Source: Niveibacterium microcysteis (GTDB lineage: Bacteria; Pseudomonadota; Gammaproteobacteria; Burkholderiales; Rhodocyclaceae). From it: a stretch of DNA of 64,000 nucleotides. Of this stretch, positions 3,087 to 45,769 are shown piece after piece. Under the pieces are notes generated by a model. That model did no database searches, was not told the DNA's origin, and was given only the letters and a program-made list of their open reading frames with translations. Positions within the stretch are counted from its first letter, which is position 1; every line of letters starts with the position of its first letter. The DNA is taken from positions 1,302,001 through 1,366,000 of the forward strand of contig NZ_CP071060.1 in the NCBI RefSeq assembly GCF_017161445.1, in the 5' to 3' direction. The translations under genes and the position numbers were made by a program.

Positions 3087-3099
3087 TACAAGGGCTTCC

Positions 3100-3400
3100 C
3101 CAGTAGTCAAGGCGAACTGATCCAACGGCCACGCAACACGTGGCCGTTTTGCTTCCTGCCAAACCGCTTTGTTCTTCCGGTCGTTGGGCTGCGTCGCTCG
3201 ATTGAGTGAGGGGTACGGACTGCGACACTACAAACGGTCATCGATGCAGCGCTTGTGGCTGCGGACCCTGATGAAAGACGCGCGCGGGGGCCTCATTCGT
3301 TAGTCGCGGAAAGCGCTTGCTTCCGCCACGAGTTAAACAGGACATGCCTCGCGCGGGTCCAACCCTGGCTCATCAACGCGTGCCGTCTCGATCGGCGGGA
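3100..3400 (-). ncRNA. candidate bridge RNA / seekRNA region of IS copy 1
   Basis: This is the 320-bp non-coding end of the element, downstream of the transposase, the location reported for the guide RNA of IS1111-type elements. It carries a hairpin (AACGGCCACG ... CGTGGCCGTT, 3123-3147). It also carries TCATTCGTTAG at 3293-3303, identical to the 11 bases across the right IS/attC junction (4528-4538), and ACTACAA at 3227-3233, identical to the bases across the left IS end. These are candidate guide segments. Transcription and structure are inferred, and the exact RNA ends cannot be read. Confidence 0.5.
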
Positions 3401-3406
3401 AACGAG

Positions 3407-4426
3407 TTAGTCGGCAATGAGTTCAAACGTGTCGCCGCGTGCAAGACAGGCCCACGCCAGTCTTGCGTTCTTGGCCGCGACGGCGATCACGGCGCGCCAG
3501 TAGCCGCGTCGCACTGCGAGTGCGCGCGCCCAGCGGCTGATGCGATCTTCACGCTGGGCGGCCAGCGCCAACACCGCACGAGCGCCCATCACCAGCAGGC
3601 TTCGCAAGTAGGCATCCCCGGCTTTGGTGATGCGCCCCAGGCGTGACTTGCCGCCTGAGCTGTATTGACCCGGTACGAGTCCGAGCCAGGCAGCGAACTG
3701 CCGTCCGTTCTTGAATTCGTGGCCGTTGCCAATGCTCGCCACCAGGGCGCCCGCGCTGGTCTCGCCGACACCAGGCAGGGCCATCAGGCGTGTGATGCGC
3801 CGATCCTGCCTTGCGATCTGACGCAGCTTGGTGTCGTAGGCATTGATGCGTTCGTCGAGCTGGGCGATGGTGACGAGCAGATCTTCGAGCGCTTCGCGCG
3901 CCAAGCTTGGCAGCGTCTCGATCGCAGCGCGCGCCTGACGGCGGACCACGCTCGCTTTGAGCGGCAGCACATGACCAAATTCGGCGAGCAACCCCCGCAG
4001 CCGGTTGATCATTGCCGTGCGCTCGGTGACAAAGCCTTGTCGGACCCGATGCAGCGTCAGATGCGCTTGTTGCGCTTCATCCTTCACCGGCACGAAACGC
4101 ATCGCCGGCCGTTGCACCGCTTCGCAGATCGCAGCAGCGTCCGCCGCGTCGTTCTTGCCGCGCTTGCCTGAAAGCCGGTAAGGCACCACAAACTTGGGCG
4201 CCATCAAACGCACGGTGTGACCGAAGCGGGAAAATGCCCTCGCCCAATGGTGCGCGCCCGAGCATGCTTCCATGCCAATCAAGCAGGGCGGCAGTTGGGC
4301 GACAACCTCGAGCAACTTCTCGCGTCGTACCGAGGGTTGTACAAGGGCAGGTTTGCCGTGTTCATCCACGCCATGCAACGCAAACACGTTCTTGGCCAGA
4401 TCGATTCCAAGGACCACAATTTTCAT
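3407..4426 (-). CDS. IS110-family transposase, copy 1
   Basis: 339 residues from the ATG at 4426, preceded by GGAGGGG at 9-15 bp. A longer frame from 4531 has no ribosome site. The N-terminal RuvC-like DEDD domain is visible: D8 in VLGIDLAKNVFALHG, E in CLIGMEACSGAHHWARAF, and the D-D pair in GKNDAADAAAICEAVQ. The central part is coiled (VTIAQLDERINAYDTKL). The C-terminal Tnp_20 domain has LPGVGETSAGALVASIGNG, EFKNGRQFAAWLGLVPGQY and SSGGKSRLGRITKAGDAYLR with the catalytic-type Ser. The length is normal and the gene is intact. It catalyses insertion of the element into attC, guided by the adjacent RNA if the bridge-RNA model applies. Confidence 0.95.
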   Translation of the reverse strand: MKIVVLGIDLAKNVFALHGVDEHGKPALVQPSVRREKLLEVVAQLPPCLIGMEACSGAHHWARAFSRFGHTVRLMAPKFVVPYRLSGKRGKNDAADAAAICEAVQRPAMRFVPVKDEAQQAHLTLHRVRQGFVTERTAMINRLRGLLAEFGHVLPLKASVVRRQARAAIETLPSLAREALEDLLVTIAQLDERINAYDTKLRQIARQDRRITRLMALPGVGETSAGALVASIGNGHEFKNGRQFAAWLGLVPGQYSSGGKSRLGRITKAGDAYLRSLLVMGARAVLALAAQREDRISRWARALAVRRGYWRAVIAVAAKNARLAWACLARGDTFELIAD

Positions 4427-4584
4427 GGGCTTCCCCTCCATCGAGATGACGATGAGTTGTGCAATCCCATCGTGGCACTCAAAACGCGACGCCGCTCCAC
4501 CGGCACCGCGGGATGGGGAATGCCCTTTCATTCGTTAGGCGCACAAGATTTACACGGCGCACTCAATAAAGAACAGAGAATTTG

Positions 4585-4878
4585 ATGGCCGCAGACCTTA
4601 AGGAAGACCCGACGTTCTACGATCGCGCCGATAGCCACATTCACCTGGCGAATGAGCATTGCGCGAACATTGGTCGCGGCAAAGTGAGTGCCTCCATGAT
4701 GTACGGCTGCGCGCGCTTCCAAGCCTGGAACGCCGCCTGCTGGGCCGAGAGCGCGGAAGAAATGAAGGCCAAGCGTGAAGAAACGATCAACTATTTTGTC
4801 GATCAATATCGGGCCATGCTTGAAGACAACGTAGACGACTACATCAACAACTTCGAGAAGTATGTCGGCGGCGCCTAA
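4585..4878 (+). CDS. cassette 8: DUF3144-type protein
   Basis: 97 residues from the ATG at 4585 (a TTG directly before it is the alternative), with AGAG upstream. The sequence has the layout of DUF3144: FYDRADSHIHLANEHCANI, GRGKVSASMMYGCARFQAWN, then SAEEMKAKREETINYFVDQY and DDYINNF. The protein is helical, soluble and acidic. DUF3144 proteins are short and of unknown function. Here the gene is mobile cargo: its cassette begins GTTAGGCGC and ends GCGCCTAAC. The IS copy lies just upstream, so expression from earlier array promoters is probably cut off. Confidence 0.85.
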   Translation: MAADLKEDPTFYDRADSHIHLANEHCANIGRGKVSASMMYGCARFQAWNAACWAESAEEMKAKREETINYFVDQYRAMLEDNVDDYINNFEKYVGGA

Positions 4879-6069: not shown

Positions 6070-6348
6070 ATGACTACACTTCACTTCGAGTGGGACGAGC
6101 CGAAGGCCAAGGCCAACATCAAGAAGCACGGTGTGAGCTTCGAAGAAGCCAAGACCGTCTTCTACGACGACCGGGCAAGGCTAATCGCAGACCCGGACCA
6201 TTCCGAAGACGAAGAGCGGTTCATCCTCCTGGGCTACAGCTCAGGCCTGAAACTGCTTGTCGTGTGCCATTGCTACCGCACGTCCGAGAACGTAATTCGC
6301 ATCATCTCGGCTCGAAAAGCCACGAAGCAAGAGGCCGCGTCCTACTGA
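6070..6348 (+). CDS. brnT: cassette 11: BrnT-family toxin
   Basis: 92 residues. It has the BrnT pattern: FEWDEPKAKANIKKHGVSFE near the N-terminus, EAKTVFYDDRARLIADPDHS, EERFILLGYSSGLKLLVVCH and a C-terminal YRTSENVIRIISARKATKQE. BrnT is a ribonuclease with a RelE-like fold that inhibits translation and is neutralised by BrnA. The order toxin first, antitoxin second is normal for this family. The stop is 13 bp before the brnA ATG. The pair has its own promoter within the cassette, unlike most cassette genes, and could stabilise this part of the array against loss. Confidence 0.95.
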   Translation: MTTLHFEWDEPKAKANIKKHGVSFEEAKTVFYDDRARLIADPDHSEDEERFILLGYSSGLKLLVVCHCYRTSENVIRIISARKATKQEAASY

Positions 6349-7306: not shown

Positions 7307-7319
7307 TACAAGGGCTTCC

Positions 7320-7620
7320 CCAGTAGTCAAGGCGAACTGATCCAACGGCCACGCAACACGTGGCCGTTTTGCTTCCTGCCAAACCGCTTTGTTCTTCCGG
7401 TCGTTGGGCTGCGTCGCTCGATTGAGTGAGGGGTACGGACTGCGACACTACAAACGGTCATCGATGCAGCGCTTGTGGCTGCGGACCCTGATGAAAGACG
7501 CGCGCGGGGGCCTCATTCGTTAGTCGCGGAAAGCGCTTGCTTCCGCCACGAGTTAAACAGGACATGCCTCGCGCGGGTCCAACCCTGGCTCATCAACGCG
7601 TGCCGTCTCGATCGGCGGGA
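7320..7620 (-). ncRNA. candidate bridge RNA / seekRNA region of IS copy 2
   Basis: The sequence is identical to the non-coding end of copy 1 as far as I can align it. The candidate guide segments are ACTACAA (7447-7453) and TCATTCGTTAG (7513-7523), the latter equal to the right junction at 8748-8758. RNA production is inferred. Confidence 0.48.
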
Positions 7621-7626
7621 AACGAG

Positions 7627-8646
7627 TTAGTCGGCAATGAGTTCAAACGTGTCGCCGCGTGCAAGACAGGCCCACGCCAGTCTTGCGTTCTTGGCCGCGA
7701 CGGCGATCACGGCGCGCCAGTAGCCGCGTCGCACTGCGAGTGCGCGCGCCCAGCGGCTGATGCGATCTTCACGCTGGGCGGCCAGCGCCAACACCGCACG
7801 AGCGCCCATCACCAGCAGGCTTCGCAAGTAGGCATCCCCGGCTTTGGTGATGCGCCCCAGGCGTGACTTGCCGCCTGAGCTGTATTGACCCGGTACGAGT
7901 CCGAGCCAGGCAGCGAACTGCCGTCCGTTCTTGAATTCGTGGCCGTTGCCAATGCTCGCCACCAGGGCGCCCGCGCTGGTCTCGCCGACACCAGGCAGGG
8001 CCATCAGGCGTGTGATGCGCCGATCCTGCCTTGCGATCTGACGCAGCTTGGTGTCGTAGGCATTGATGCGTTCGTCGAGCTGGGCGATGGTGACGAGCAG
8101 ATCTTCGAGCGCTTCGCGCGCCAAGCTTGGCAGCGTCTCGATCGCAGCGCGCGCCTGACGGCGGACCACGCTCGCTTTGAGCGGCAGCACATGACCAAAT
8201 TCGGCGAGCAACCCCCGCAGCCGGTTGATCATTGCCGTGCGCTCGGTGACAAAGCCTTGTCGGACCCGATGCAGCGTCAGATGCGCTTGTTGCGCTTCAT
8301 CCTTCACCGGCACGAAACGCATCGCCGGCCGTTGCACCGCTTCGCAGATCGCAGCAGCGTCCGCCGCGTCGTTCTTGCCGCGCTTGCCTGAAAGCCGGTA
8401 AGGCACCACAAACTTGGGCGCCATCAAACGCACGGTGTGACCGAAGCGGGAAAATGCCCTCGCCCAATGGTGCGCGCCCGAGCATGCTTCCATGCCAATC
8501 AAGCAGGGCGGCAGTTGGGCGACAACCTCGAGCAACTTCTCGCGTCGTACCGAGGGTTGTACAAGGGCAGGCTTGCCGTGTTCATCCACGCCATGCAACG
8601 CAAACACGTTCTTGGCCAGATCGATTCCAAGGACCACAATTTTCAT
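7627..8646 (-). CDS. IS110-family transposase, copy 2
   Basis: 339 residues and intact, from the ATG at 8646 after GGAGGGG. The protein has the same DEDD residues (GIDLAKN, GMEACSG, KNDAADA) and the same Ser-containing C-terminal motif (SSGGKSRLGRITKAGDAYLR) as copy 1. The near-identity indicates that one copy gave rise to the other recently, or both came from a common recent source. Confidence 0.95.
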   Translation of the reverse strand: MKIVVLGIDLAKNVFALHGVDEHGKPALVQPSVRREKLLEVVAQLPPCLIGMEACSGAHHWARAFSRFGHTVRLMAPKFVVPYRLSGKRGKNDAADAAAICEAVQRPAMRFVPVKDEAQQAHLTLHRVRQGFVTERTAMINRLRGLLAEFGHVLPLKASVVRRQARAAIETLPSLAREALEDLLVTIAQLDERINAYDTKLRQIARQDRRITRLMALPGVGETSAGALVASIGNGHEFKNGRQFAAWLGLVPGQYSSGGKSRLGRITKAGDAYLRSLLVMGARAVLALAAQREDRISRWARALAVRRGYWRAVIAVAAKNARLAWACLARGDTFELIAD

Positions 8647-8766
8647 GGGCTTCCCCTCCATCGAGATGACGATGAGTTGTGCAATCCCATCGTGGCACTC
8701 AAAACGCGACGCCGCTCAAGCGGCACCGCGGGATGGGGAATGCCCTTTCATTCGTTAGGGCTCAAA

Positions 8767-10502: not shown

Positions 10503-10515
10503 TACAAGGGCTTCC

Positions 10516-10816
10516 CCGGTAGTCAAGGCGAACTGATCCAACGGCCACGCAACACGTGGCCGTTTTGCTTCCTGCCAAACCGCTTTGTTCTTCCGGTCGT
10601 TGGGCTGCGTCGCTCGATTGAGTGAGGGGTACGGACTGCGACACTACAAACGGTCATCGATGCAGCGCTTGTGGCTGCGGACCCTGATGAAAGACGCGCG
10701 CGGGGGCCTCATTCGTTAGTCGCGGAAAGCGCTTGCTTCCGCCACGAGTTAAACAGGACATGCCTCGCGCGGGTCCAACCCTGGCTCATCAACGCGTGCC
10801 GTCTCGATCGGCGGGA
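10516..10816 (-). ncRNA. candidate bridge RNA / seekRNA region of IS copy 3
   Basis: The non-coding end is the same as in copies 1 and 2 apart from one base near the left inverted repeat. Both candidate guide segments (ACTACAA at 10643-10649 and TCATTCGTTAG at 10709-10719) are unchanged although the transposase gene has diverged. RNA production is inferred. Confidence 0.48.
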
Positions 10817-10822
10817 AACGAG

Positions 10823-11842
10823 TTAGTCGGCAATGAGTTCAAACGTGTCGCCGCGTGCAAGGCAAGCCCACGCCAGTCTTGCGTTCTTGGCCGCGACAGC
10901 GATCACGGCGCGCCAGTAGCCGCGTCGCACTGCGAGTGCGCGCGCCCAGCGGCTAATGCGATCTTCACGCTGGGCGGCCAGCGCCAACACCGCACGAGCG
11001 CCCATCACCAGCAGGCTTCGCAAGTAGGCATCCCCGGCTTTGGTGATGCGCCCCAGGCGTGACTTGCCGCCTGAGCTGTATTGACCCGGTACGAGTCCGA
11101 GCCAGGCAGCGAACTGCCGTCCGTTCTTGAATTCGTGGCCGTTGCCAATGCTCGCCACCAGGGCGCCCGCGCTGGTCTCGCCGACACCAGGCAGGGCCAT
11201 CAGGCGTGTAATGCGCCGATCCTGCCGCGCGATCTGACGCAGCTTGGTGTCGTAGGCATTGATGCGTTCGTCGAGCTGGGCGATGGTGACGAGCAGATCT
11301 TCGAGCGCGTCACGCGCCAAGCTTGGCAGCGTCTCGATCGCCGCACGCGCCTGACGGCGGACAACGCTCGCTTTGAGCGGCAGCACATGGCCAAATTCGG
11401 CGAGCAACCCACGCAGGCGGTTGATCATTGCCGTGCGCTCGGTGACAAAGCCTTGTCGGACCCGATGCAGCGTCAGATGCGCTTGTTGCGCTTCATCCTT
11501 CACCGGCACGAAACGCATCGCCGGCCGTTGCACCGCTTCGCAGATCGCAGCGGCGTCCGCCGCGTCGTTCTTGCCGCGCTTGCCTGAAAGCCGGTAAGGC
11601 ACCACAAACTTGGGCGCCATCAAACGCACGGTGTGACCGAAGCGGGAAAATGCCCTCGCCCAATGGTGCGCGCCCGAGCATGCTTCCATGCCGATCAAGC
11701 AGGGCGGCAGTTGGGCGACAACCTCGAGCAACTTCTCGCGTCGTACCGAGGGTTGTACAAGGGCAGGTTTGCCGTGTTCATCCACGCCATGCAACGCAAA
11801 CACGTTCTTGGCCAGATCGATTCCAAGGACCACAATTTTCAT
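10823..11842 (-). CDS. IS110-family transposase, copy 3
   Basis: 339 residues from the ATG at 11842 after GGAGGGG. Intact, with all DEDD and Ser motifs. Most of its base changes from the other two copies are silent; one visible replacement is Glu to Asp in SLARDALEDLL. This pattern suggests purifying selection on an active transposase. Confidence 0.95.
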   Translation of the reverse strand: MKIVVLGIDLAKNVFALHGVDEHGKPALVQPSVRREKLLEVVAQLPPCLIGMEACSGAHHWARAFSRFGHTVRLMAPKFVVPYRLSGKRGKNDAADAAAICEAVQRPAMRFVPVKDEAQQAHLTLHRVRQGFVTERTAMINRLRGLLAEFGHVLPLKASVVRRQARAAIETLPSLARDALEDLLVTIAQLDERINAYDTKLRQIARQDRRITRLMALPGVGETSAGALVASIGNGHEFKNGRQFAAWLGLVPGQYSSGGKSRLGRITKAGDAYLRSLLVMGARAVLALAAQREDRISRWARALAVRRGYWRAVIAVAAKNARLAWACLARGDTFELIAD

Positions 11843-11963
11843 GGGCTTCCCCTCCATCGAGATGACGATGAGTTGTGCAATCCCATCGTGGCACTCAAAA
11901 CGCGACGCCGCTCCACCGGCACCGCGGGATGGGGAATGCCCTTTCATTCGTTAGGCGCCTGGG

Positions 11964-13839: not shown

Positions 13840-13912
13840 TACTGACGGATAAGTAAAACTCACTGGATTGTGATTCCAGGTGTCACCGGTTCGATCCCGG
13901 TATGTCGCCCCA
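13840..13912 (+). pseudogene. tRNA-His 3' remnant (attachment-site scar), copy A
   Basis: The anticodon arm CTGGATTGTGATTCCAG (GTG, His), a complete T arm ACCGG-TTCGATC-CCGGT and a 3' end ATGTCGCCCCA are present. The 5' half (acceptor strand and D arm) is not: the upstream bases TACTGACGGATAAG do not pair with the 3' end. Tyrosine-recombinase elements integrate at tRNA 3' ends, and a truncated integrase follows at 13987. A second copy is at 61689-61761. Confidence 0.8.
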
Positions 13913-13924
13913 AGCTTTCCCAAG

Positions 13925-13950
13925 AAAAACCCGCCTTCTGGCGGGTTTTT
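13925..13950 (+). terminator. rho-independent terminator after tRNA-His remnant A
   Basis: AAAAACCCGCC-TTCT-GGCGGGTTTTT, a perfect 11-bp stem ending in T5. The same hairpin in slightly changed form follows the second remnant, so it belonged to the original tRNA-His locus. Confidence 0.88.
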
Positions 13951-13986
13951 CGCTTTCTGCGGAAGCATGGTGCCGGTTCGCAATTC

Positions 13987-14371
13987 TCACTTCACTGGCT
14001 TGCAGACGTCGCCCTTGCGCTTGCGGGTGTATTCTTGCGTCATGTCGTAGGCTTCATGTCCAAGGAGCCGTTGCGCAGCCTCCAGGCCCTCGCTGTTGCG
14101 CTTGTCTGTGGTTGCTTTCGCGCGAAGATCGCGGAACTGAATCGACAGTAATCGGGCTCGGGCTTTCTCGTCACTCGCGCGTTTGGCAGCGCGCTTTCGC
14201 GCCCTGTTGAAGCGATAACGGAGCTGCGCCTTGCCGATGGGCCGACCTCCTTCATCGACCAGCAAGGACGCCGTTGCAGCGCCGCCGCTTTGACGTTTGC
14301 GTTCACGGATCCTTTGAATCAGCTTGTCCAGTGGGCCGCTGAGTTCGATTGCGACTTCGGCCCCAGTCCTG
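13987..14371 (-). pseudogene. 5'-truncated phage-type tyrosine recombinase
   Basis: Only the C-terminal 125-130 residues remain. The open part with a possible start (13987-14265) reads LLVDEGGRPIGKAQLRYRF, then SIQFRDLRAKATTD with the conserved Arg, AAQRLLGHEAYDMTQEY with the H and the catalytic Tyr, and RKRKGDVCKPVK at the end. The frame continues upstream to about 14371 with HQSRTGAEVAIELSGPLDKL, typical of phage integrases, and then meets a hairpin where similarity ends. The N-terminal core-binding domain is lost, so it is inactive. It is not an integron integrase: the characteristic IntI insert is absent and it resembles phage integrases. Confidence 0.82.
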
Positions 14372-42989: not shown

Positions 42990-45769
42990 ATGGCACTTGC
43001 ACTGAGACCCGGCTACCGGGCTCTGCTCCAGGCGTTCGGCACGACCGTCGCGTTCGGCATGCTTTTGCAGCCGGCGATTGCGGAAGAGCAAGTTCAGAAG
43101 ATCCAGGTCACTGGCTCGGCGATCAAGCGGATTGCGTCGGAAGGCGCGCTGCCGGTTCAGTCGATCTCTGCTGCTGAGATCAAGAAGACTGGCGCCACGA
43201 ACGTTGCGGAACTGATCCAGAACCTGCCGGCGATGCAGGGTTTCTCGAACGCGGCGTCTAACGTTGGCGCGGGCAGCGTCGGTTACTCGAGCGCGTCGGT
43301 GCACAACCTGGGCGACAGCCGCACGCTGGTGCTGCTCAACGGCAAGCGCCTCGCGACCTACGCTGGCCAGACCTTCATTGGCGGCAGCTCGGGCGTCAAC
43401 CTGAATACGATCCCGATCGCAGCGGTTGAGCGCGTCGAAGTGCTGACCGACGGTGCATCCGCCATCTACGGTACGGATGCTGTCGCTGGGGTGGTGAACT
43501 TCATCCTGAAATCGAACTACCAAGGTCTTGACGCGTCGGTCTCGTACAACGCGCCGGAAGCTGGTGGCGCAGAAGAGAAGCGTATCAGCGTCAGTGGTGG
43601 CTTCGGCGACCTCGAGCAAGATCGCTTCAATGTGTTCTGACCTATGCGCACACCGAGAACGATCCGTTGGCCGCTGCCGACCGCAAGAAGTTCGCTGTTC
43701 CGCCGAGCCAGGGCTATTACAAATTCACCGGCACCGATGGCGGGATCTACCGCCTGCGCCCGAGTTCGTCGCGCGGCAACCCCGCAAACGCCACGATTAC
43801 TTGGTATAACCCGAGTGCGGCGCCGGATGACCAATACATTACTCAGAGCTTCAATCCGGCCGTGAAGGCCGGGAGTCCATGTCCGGCGAAGCACGTCCTG
43901 AGTGGTTCGTCGTGCCGATATATTTACCCGTACGACCTCGAGATCTACCCGGAGCAGAAGCAGGACGCCTTTACCGGCTCGTTCCAGTTCAAGATCAATG
44001 AGAATCACACCCTGTTCGCAGACGCGCTTTATTCGAAGCACACGATGATTTCGAATATCGCACCTCCTCCGGGTGAGGTACCGCTGACGGTGGGCGATTC
44101 AATTTGGAATACCTACATTCAGCCTTATCTGCGGACGGTACCGGCCGGTTACGACATTGTTGACGCGGTGGCTCCGTGGCGGATTTCCGATGCCGGTCCT
44201 CGTCGTACGAAGGGCACGACAGAGGCCATCCACTTCTCTGGCGGTTCGAAGGGTGTTATCGCTGGATGGGACTATTCGGCTGCCTATACGCACTCGGAGA
44301 ACAAGTGGCAAGAGGAGCTGCTGTCTGGCTACCTGTACAACGATGATCTGAATGCGCTGATCACGTCGGGTGTGCTGAACCCCTTTGGTCCTCCGGGGTC
44401 GAACAAGGCGGCTCTCCAATCGGCTCTGGCTCAAGGCGTTTGGAAGAAGGGCACTGCCGTTCTTGACGCGGTTGAGTTGCGTGGCTCCAAGGAAATCGCA
44501 CAGTTGCCGGCGGGCGGCCTGATGCTCGGCGCCGGCCTTGATTGGAAGCGAGAAGCGGACAAGTACGAGCCGAGCGGTCTTGCTCAGGGCACCGATCGCG
44601 GAGGTCAATTCCCTGACTTCGCCACAGACGTGCCGTTCGATGTGTCGCGTGATTCCTATGGCCTGTTTGGTGAGCTGATTGCACCGGTTGTGAAGAACCT
44701 GGAGGTTAGCGGTGCGCTGCGCTACGACAACTACTCCGATGTTGGCGGTACGACCAACTACAAAGTAGGTGCTCGCTGGCAGGCGTTGAACAACCTATTG
44801 TTCCGTACAAGCTTCAATACGGGTTTCCGCGCGCCGCGTCCTGCTCAAACGCAGAACATCACCCAACTGTATGGCGTTACGGCGAATCCGTACGATTGCC
44901 CTTATAAGGACGCCCGCGCGGTGTATTGCAAGCCGCCCGGCACGCAATACCCGCTGTACACGGGTGGTTCCAGCGAGCTGAAGCCGGAAGAGTCGAAGCA
45001 GTTCTCGTTCGGCATTCGCTTTGAGCCGACGAGCTGGTCGAGTGTCGGTGCGGATTACTGGAACGTGTCGATCAAGAACACGTTTGGCACCATCTCAGAG
45101 GAAGAGGTTGCTGCCGATTACGAGGGGGCTTGGTCAAACGGGTCAATACGTTCGGATTTGTACGTCGATCCGCAGACCGGCAAGCCGATCCTCGCGTGGT
45201 ATACGCCGTTGAAGAACCTTGGCGAGCGTAAGGCACAAGGGGTCGATTACGACATCACCCTTGGGTCGCGCTACTCGTTCGGCCGCATTCTCTCCAGCTT
45301 CAAGGGCACGTGGATGTTGACCGACAAGCAGCAGACTACGATCGGCGGCGAGTACTACCAGATGGTCGGGATCTACAGCAACGTCCTGCGGCAAGTGGCC
45401 TTGCGTCACCAGTTCCAGTGGGCGAACACGCTGTCGATGGCCGATTGGGATCACCGTCTGACCATGAATTACAAGCATGGTTACTACGAATCGCGTGATG
45501 GCGAATCGACGGGTGATGTCTTCGTTGACGGTGGCGGTCTCACCAAGGCAACTTACAAGGTCAAGGAGTACGTGACCTTCGACTGGCAGACGACTTACCG
45601 CACGCCGGTCAAGGGGCTGGACGTCACGGGCGGCATTCTGAACATCTTCGATGCCAACCCGCCGTTCTCCCTGAATGCTGGTCTGGGTCAAGCTGTGGGT
45701 TACAACCCGCAAGTTGCTGATCCGCGCGGCCGTACCTACTACCTGCAAGCCGGTTACAAGTTCAAGTAA
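42990..45769 (+). pseudogene. TonB-dependent receptor with one frameshift
   Basis: Read as two frames: 42990-43640 (216 residues) and the remainder up to 45769 (about 710 residues). The first has a signal peptide, a TonB-box-like EEQVQKIQVTGSAIKRI and the plug domain (VAELIQNLPAMQGF, LVLLNGKRLATYAG, VEVLTDGASAIYGTDAVAGV). Joined at 43637, the second continues the plug-to-barrel transition (LTYAHTENDP) and forms the 22-strand barrel with the RTSFNTGFRAPRPAQ segment and final LQAGYKFK. One missing base in TTC-TGA would restore a single receptor of about 925 residues. The substrate is unknown; the downstream TonB system could power it. Confidence 0.88.

Follow-up and report, generated by a model that had tools for sequence, protein, structure and literature searches.

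Insertion sequences of the IS1111-attC group are reportedly found at a fixed position at one end of integron attC sites, an observation credited to Tetu and Holmes in 2008 and to Post and Hall in 2009. In 2024 the seekRNAs of two attC-targeting elements, ISKpn4 and ISPst6, were purified together with transposase, and an RNA was predicted for ISPa25, according to the sections of the report that deal with these elements (PMC11187229). The same sections place the match to the top strand of the target 5' of the match to the bottom strand in IS1111 seekRNAs, give the long form as 145-170 nt, and record a natural redirection between ISEc11 and ISXne4 (PMC11187229). In the portion of the bridge-RNA paper that covers this group, such RNAs are predicted in 93.0% of IS1111 elements (PMC11208160). 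Since RNA guidance to attC has been shown for ISKpn4 and ISPst6 in those sections of the seekRNA report (PMC11187229), the kind of system is established, and the element described here is well supported as a new example of an attC-targeting RNA-guided IS1111 element, not as a new kind of system.

The window, by which we mean the whole analysed stretch of 64,000 nucleotides, carries three copies of the element on the minus strand, at 3087..4533 (1447 bp), 7307..8753 and 10503..11949, with bounds set from the three copies and their relatives. The second and third copies sit in a second and a third attC at the same position and in the same orientation as the first, to which they are identical at 1444/1447 and 1429/1447 bases. 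Being near-identical, the three copies count as one observation, and relatives were therefore needed. Copy 1 is flanked by ...TTTCAAC on one side and by GTTAGGC, the R' box of an attC, on the other; its end is uncertain by 1 bp because one G at the join is common to element and target. In the orientation of the element each copy reads CCTAAC/GAATGAAAGGGC ... GCCCTTGTA/GT (a slash marks the join of element and target, or the insertion point), and since the element is encoded on the minus strand, the "left" and "right" ends of the original prediction are its 3' and 5' ends. No further copies were found in the genome by protein search (E<=0.001), and the matches of the RNA covariance model in the whole genome were exactly these three.

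The transposase gene (3407..4441, minus strand, 344 aa) matches PF01548 (DEDD_Tnp_IS110), PF02371 and NF033542, the NCBI model for IS110-family RNA-guided transposases, so that the DEDD transposase of the IS1111 group is recognised at domain level, not residue by residue. Its relatives with solved structures in the PDB are ISCro4 and IS621. Subterminal inverted repeats sharing AAGGGC(A)TTCCCCA were read from the sequence at 3090..3102 (plus strand, AAGGGCTTCCCCA), 3 bp inside the 3' (RE) end, and at 4514..4527 (minus strand, AAGGGCATTCCCCA), 6 bp inside the 5' (LE) end, leaving short terminal extensions. An automatic inverted-repeat search for the element ends yielded mostly false pairs, and a search for conserved end motifs was used instead. 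Past the stop codon of the transposase gene lie 320 bp of non-coding sequence. Subterminal repeats with a non-coding region downstream of the gene are the layout given for IS1111 in the relevant sections of the seekRNA report (PMC11187229).

Like ISKpn4, ISPst6 and ISPa25 as portrayed in those sections, the element targets one end of attC and would draw its RNA from downstream of the transposase gene, with the matches in the same order and a length of 149 nt against 145-170 nt (PMC11187229). Unlike that of ISKpn4 and ISPst6, the RNA here is predicted, and the element itself appears to be distinct from these two and from ISPa25. In the ISEc21 seekRNA, which is of the IS110 type, the two target matches are described as standing in the opposite order (PMC11187229). 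With IS621 the element shares, as far as the relevant part of the bridge-RNA paper goes, an RNA with separate target and donor guides and a transposase related by sequence (PMC11208160). However, IS621 belongs to the IS110 group proper, in which the RNA region lies upstream of the transposase gene and long subterminal repeats are lacking, whereas here the RNA lies downstream and the repeats are present.

The first 13 kb of the window hold a cassette array in which an attC core repeat is common to 13 places. In the genome, two genes score above the family cut-off as integron integrases, at 1197257-1198201 and 1300073-1301011 (G000:C1). The latter lies on the same contig, approximately 1 kb before the window start (1302001), and probably serves the array. 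Each insertion sequence stands directly before the R' box of an attC (GTTAGGC or GTTAGGG), and the insertion point therefore separates the L' part of the site from the R' part. All three of the three copies, inside the array, are inserted at the R' end in a single orientation, and the fixed position at one end of attC is that of the IS1111-attC group. The attC at window position 1826 has a degenerate R' box, GCTAGGT instead of GTTRRRY. Among the cassettes, 6070-6348 encodes a BrnT-family ribonuclease toxin of a type II toxin-antitoxin pair, 694-1116 a WapI-like immunity-family protein just over the cut-off, and 4582-4878 a DUF3144 protein. Past the far end of the array, at 13844-14265, a sub-threshold tRNA-like match lies beside a short tyrosine-recombinase-like fragment just under the cut-off.

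According to the original prediction, two segments of the non-coding end copy the element's own junctions: an 11-mer repeated across the IS/attC junction, and ACTACAA, repeated at the left end. Both repeats are present in all three copies. The 11-mer TCATTCGTTAG occurs six times in the window where none is expected, once in the non-coding end and once at the junction of each copy (3293/4528, 7513/8748 and 10709/11944). ACTACAA occurs seven times against 1.3 expected, at the left junction and in the non-coding end of each copy and also at 44757, outside the copies. When 308 nt of the non-coding region were shuffled with dinucleotides preserved, a junction-spanning match of at least 11 arose at the junction of the 11-mer in 2/5000 shuffles and a match of at least 7 at the other junction in 118/5000. 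The 11-mer thus exceeds what chance would give, and the 7-mer is marginal when taken alone.

Relatives were drawn from a scan of genome contigs that returned 344 coding stretches, of which the best 80 loci, with 62-99% transposase identity, were kept; nine plasmid loci were added, and L092 and L099 were left out as too diverged. The end-motif search covered 83 loci (nine without a usable right end or of odd length), 81 RNAs were aligned, and 78 were used for the right guide and 74 for the left. The nearest organism-named protein, among the best 120 listed of 8000 candidates scored, is 83% identical and also from Niveibacterium. No plasmid relative at 80% identity or above appeared among the 5000 best plasmid records, the best listed reaching 70.8%. 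A crude test of the flanks for attC character (left-flank, L'-like and second R-box motifs) was passed by 29/71 loci and is indicative, as it misses many sites; its two right-side motifs together pass 13/274 control positions, and the left-flank motif alone passes 58/71 loci. Several loci, e.g. L012, L016, L027, L031, L038 and L071, combine attC-type guides with right flanks without an attC-like appearance, and these may be off-target insertions or cases of wrongly set ends. The right flanks of three attC-type loci (L024, L042 and L063) start with GTAATGTA in otherwise different surroundings, and those of L042 and L063 have 15 bases in common (GTAATGTAGACCGTC). The idea that these three occupy attI sites was dropped, inspection by eye of the three longest right-flank frames of each having revealed no integrase.

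The covariance check of the RNA fold that the original prediction had proposed was run and returned a covarying structure over 55 relatives' sequences. The predicted guide RNA (a long seekRNA or bridge RNA; 3217..3365, minus strand) has 149 nt and 28 modelled base pairs. Its structure, written by hand from the alignment of relatives, has a closing helix, a long stem, a hairpin flanked by two variable stretches, and another stem-hairpin. The alignment holds 55 of 68 available RNAs, thinned by eye, and over these distinct sequences 88.5% of cells are paired. Two-sided changes were counted at 17 pairs in 151 cells, compared with 54.1 for shuffled letters and 25-55 for slid structures, the last comparison somewhat flattering the fold because the structure was drawn with the same sequences in view; helix 1 is undercounted, with about 17 rows out of register there. 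Helix 4, the hairpin between the two target guides (3306..3326, minus strand), shows two-sided changes in 6/6 pairs with just 75.8% of cells paired. The stability of the single-sequence fold was no better than that of shuffles (z -0.35); single-sequence folding being uninformative, the covarying alignment was used. Rfam, applied to the first 14 kb, gave no match in the copies at E<=1. On this model the non-coding region would be read into an RNA of about 149 nt. In two relatives extra sequence follows directly after the left target guide in the RNA region past the transposase gene, approximately 230 bases in L077 and approximately 80 in L058, so the RNA there is probably altered or broken.

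It is comparison among relatives that reveals the fold of this predicted RNA and, within it, two putative guides that each read one half of the insertion site. The right target guide, TTTAACTC (RNA 5'-3'; 3330..3337, minus strand), had been overlooked in the original prediction; it would pair with the top strand of the right flank, on the L' side of attC. The left target guide, CTAAC (3299..3303, minus strand), is identical in letters to the five bases with which the left flank ends, in the R' box of attC, and would pair with the other strand of that flank. The longest exact complement of the right guide to its own right flank has a mean length of 5.32 nt, compared with 4.35 nt for swapped flanks (0/5000 permutations, n=78), and the left guide matches its own flank at 4.649/5 positions against 4.136 (sd 0.043) when permuted (0/10,000 permutations, n=74), in tests that ignore shared ancestry. 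Of the 56 loci whose left guide is CTAAC, 41 have exactly these five bases in the flank and 52 have a flank ending in AAC. At the 18 loci where the left guide differs from CTAAC, it fits its own flank better than CTAAC would in 12 cases, equally in two and worse in four. Eight relatives at other sites carry rewritten guides with exact right-guide complements of 9 nt (L015, L017, L076, L094 and L097) or 8 nt (L022, L062 and L079), and L057, at a CTAAC site, has a complement of 11 nt. An unbiased scan of RNA columns against flank columns placed left-flank positions -1, -2, -4 and -5 against the CTAAC columns among the top matches; guide-level tests were used because many other high scores in that scan are RE itself or probable clade markers. 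As in IS1111 seekRNAs, the top-strand match (TTTAACTC) lies 5' of the bottom-strand match (CTAAC). Against the three occupied attCs the element's own right guide makes 4, 6 and 6 Watson-Crick pairs of 11 when placed in its best register, and for one of the two sixes that register is shifted by a base. Vacant attCs give 4 or 5/11 in 12/12, and two of the three occupied sites are slightly higher and one is not, in a comparison of few sites. Most of the target choice may rest with the left guide together with the shared core.

These results favor the earlier proposal that a guide RNA in the non-coding end specifies attC, but its assignment of guides needs correcting. Within the 11-mer, only CTAAC behaves as a target guide. 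The remaining GAATGA (3293..3298, minus strand) has the letters of the left end of the element and does not follow it in the relatives, matching its own end at 5.122/6 against 5.148 when permuted, with 4631/5000 permutations at least as high; GAATGA may pair with LE, a pairing to which the comparison lends no support. The full 11-mer is kept in just 18 of the 81 RNAs, CTAAC in 62 and TTGTAGT in 73, as expected if CTAAC and not the whole 11-mer is the guide. Absence of the two segments from close relatives that still insert in attC had been named as evidence against the proposal, and here the picture is mixed: the nearest loci, L014 (99% transposase identity) and L011 (95%), stand at CCTAAC/GTTTGA with both segments unchanged, and the 11-mer is missing from most RNAs.

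ACTACAA, taken as a second target guide in the original prediction, is instead probably a donor-end guide. In the RNA it reads TTGTAGT (3227..3233, minus strand), with the letters of the right end of the element and the first flank bases, and is the candidate left donor guide. The IS5708-like clade (L091, L093 and L098) has TTATA both in the RNA and in the end of the element, and such tracking is absent in L019, L031 and L089. The candidate right donor guide, CTTTCATC (3270..3277, minus strand), is highly conserved, and ATGAAAG, from the left end of the element, is contained in its reverse complement; L034 shows a compensatory change (LE GAATAAAAG with RNA CTTTTATC), and in L021 one side has changed without compensation. 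Both donor guides are plausible readings, thinly tested on one clade and a single locus.

The shared segments could in principle be products of chance or base composition, attC being recognised by the transposase protein or through its hairpin fold. The near-chance 7-mer and the moderate fit of the right guide to its own attCs lean that way, and attC sites are known to fold. However, where the target differs among relatives, both guides change with the flank, and the RNA fold covaries; we consider this explanation very improbable. Least probable of all, and barely deserving of credence, is that the segments are left over from a previous insertion or from an end duplicated within the element: a nested insertion could leave short copies of ends, and L077 does have its extra stretch in the RNA region, yet CTAAC and TTGTAG hold the same place in 62/81 and 77/81 RNAs, down to approximately 62% transposase identity and inside a covarying RNA.

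A more substantial competitor, which we nevertheless regard as unlikely, holds that the 11-mer and 7-mer are junction guides that serve mainly in excision, reading LF+LE and RE+RF, and not in the choice of target. The identity does span both junctions in all three copies, and in the published system, as the relevant sections have it, circle formation needs the right flanks around the donor (PMC11187229). In L015, L053 and L062, moreover, the flank base is unusual and the base that comes after TTGTAG matches it. These three are set against the whole group of 23 loci with a second flank base other than T: the base next to TTGTAG agrees with the flank in 3, is T in 19 and another base in 1. Neither the lack of LE tracking by GAATGA nor the scarcity of the full 11-mer agrees with junction reading, and a separate right target guide exists.

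We therefore hold with high confidence that this is an attC-targeting IS1111-group element whose downstream non-coding region would yield an attC-reading seekRNA (bridge RNA). The transposase families, the downstream non-coding region and the subterminal repeats support the assignment to the group, as do three copies at the same base and in the same orientation in three attCs, with an integrase gene nearby, for the target. The guide RNA is supported since the fold covaries, the guides track the flanks (0/10000 left, 0/5000 right), and relatives at other sites carry rewritten guides. From these features we infer the following sequence of events. In a circular intermediate the joined ends would create a promoter, TTGACT-16 bp-TAGAAT; a junction motif of this kind with 16-18 bp spacing occurs in 42/74 loci. 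This promoter would drive transposase and RNA together, a joint drive that the consulted part of the seekRNA report proposes for the IS1111 family (PMC11187229). The donor guides CTTTCATC and TTGTAGT would read the two ends of the element, the right guide TTTAACTC the L' side on one strand and the left guide CTAAC the R' box on the other, and the transposase-RNA complex would insert at R' without target duplication.

Target labels set by hand from the guides divide the relatives into 65 attC, 8 transposon-end-like and 10 other. On the transposase tree, which includes L014 read out of frame (a long branch), the attC label needs at least three changes, and well-supported branches force three of them; each could be a gain or a loss. 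Plasmid elements named as the IS1492, ISPsy16 and IS5708 family (63-65% transposase identity) have very similar ends and the same RNA layout. They differ in their guides and stand at CTTAGC/GTA-type sites that resemble transposon terminal repeats. In the plasmid relatives L094, L095 and L096 the site is CTTAGC or CTTAAC, then GTACGA and a stretch ending in CCCC, which we take to be the inner end of a Tn3-type terminal repeat. Searched against plasmid records, a 32-nt piece of L096 has matches in 697 at E<=10, and in 371 of these the match covers 80% of the piece or more. It lies approximately 1.2 kb from a putative resolvase gene in one plasmid record, and in a second no transposon gene is annotated nearby. 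One plasmid match (H68) spans a gene named Tn3 family transposase, and the annotation of the inspected stretches around L094, L095 and L096, for which the gene table is incomplete, lists no gene under the name Tn3. Targeting of Tn3-type terminal repeats by the plasmid relatives is a lead, not a result. That repeated rewriting of about 14 guide bases has moved one IS1111 lineage between the R' boxes of integron attC sites and inner ends of Tn3-type terminal repeats is a tentative proposal, which we rate at somewhat less than an even chance. If true, an RNA-coded switch alternates one insertion sequence between two types of mobile-element end that share a similar core, CTAAC/GT and CTTAGC/GT.

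In conclusion, the presented data place an insertion sequence of a chromosomal integron in the RNA-guided IS1111 system, and comparison alone indicates which bases of its predicted RNA read the R'-L' part of attC. Such reading by guides would explain the position and orientation in which these elements insert in cassette arrays. The relatives form a set of natural guide changes, and these may offer ready-made tests of the guide rules of the IS1111 family.
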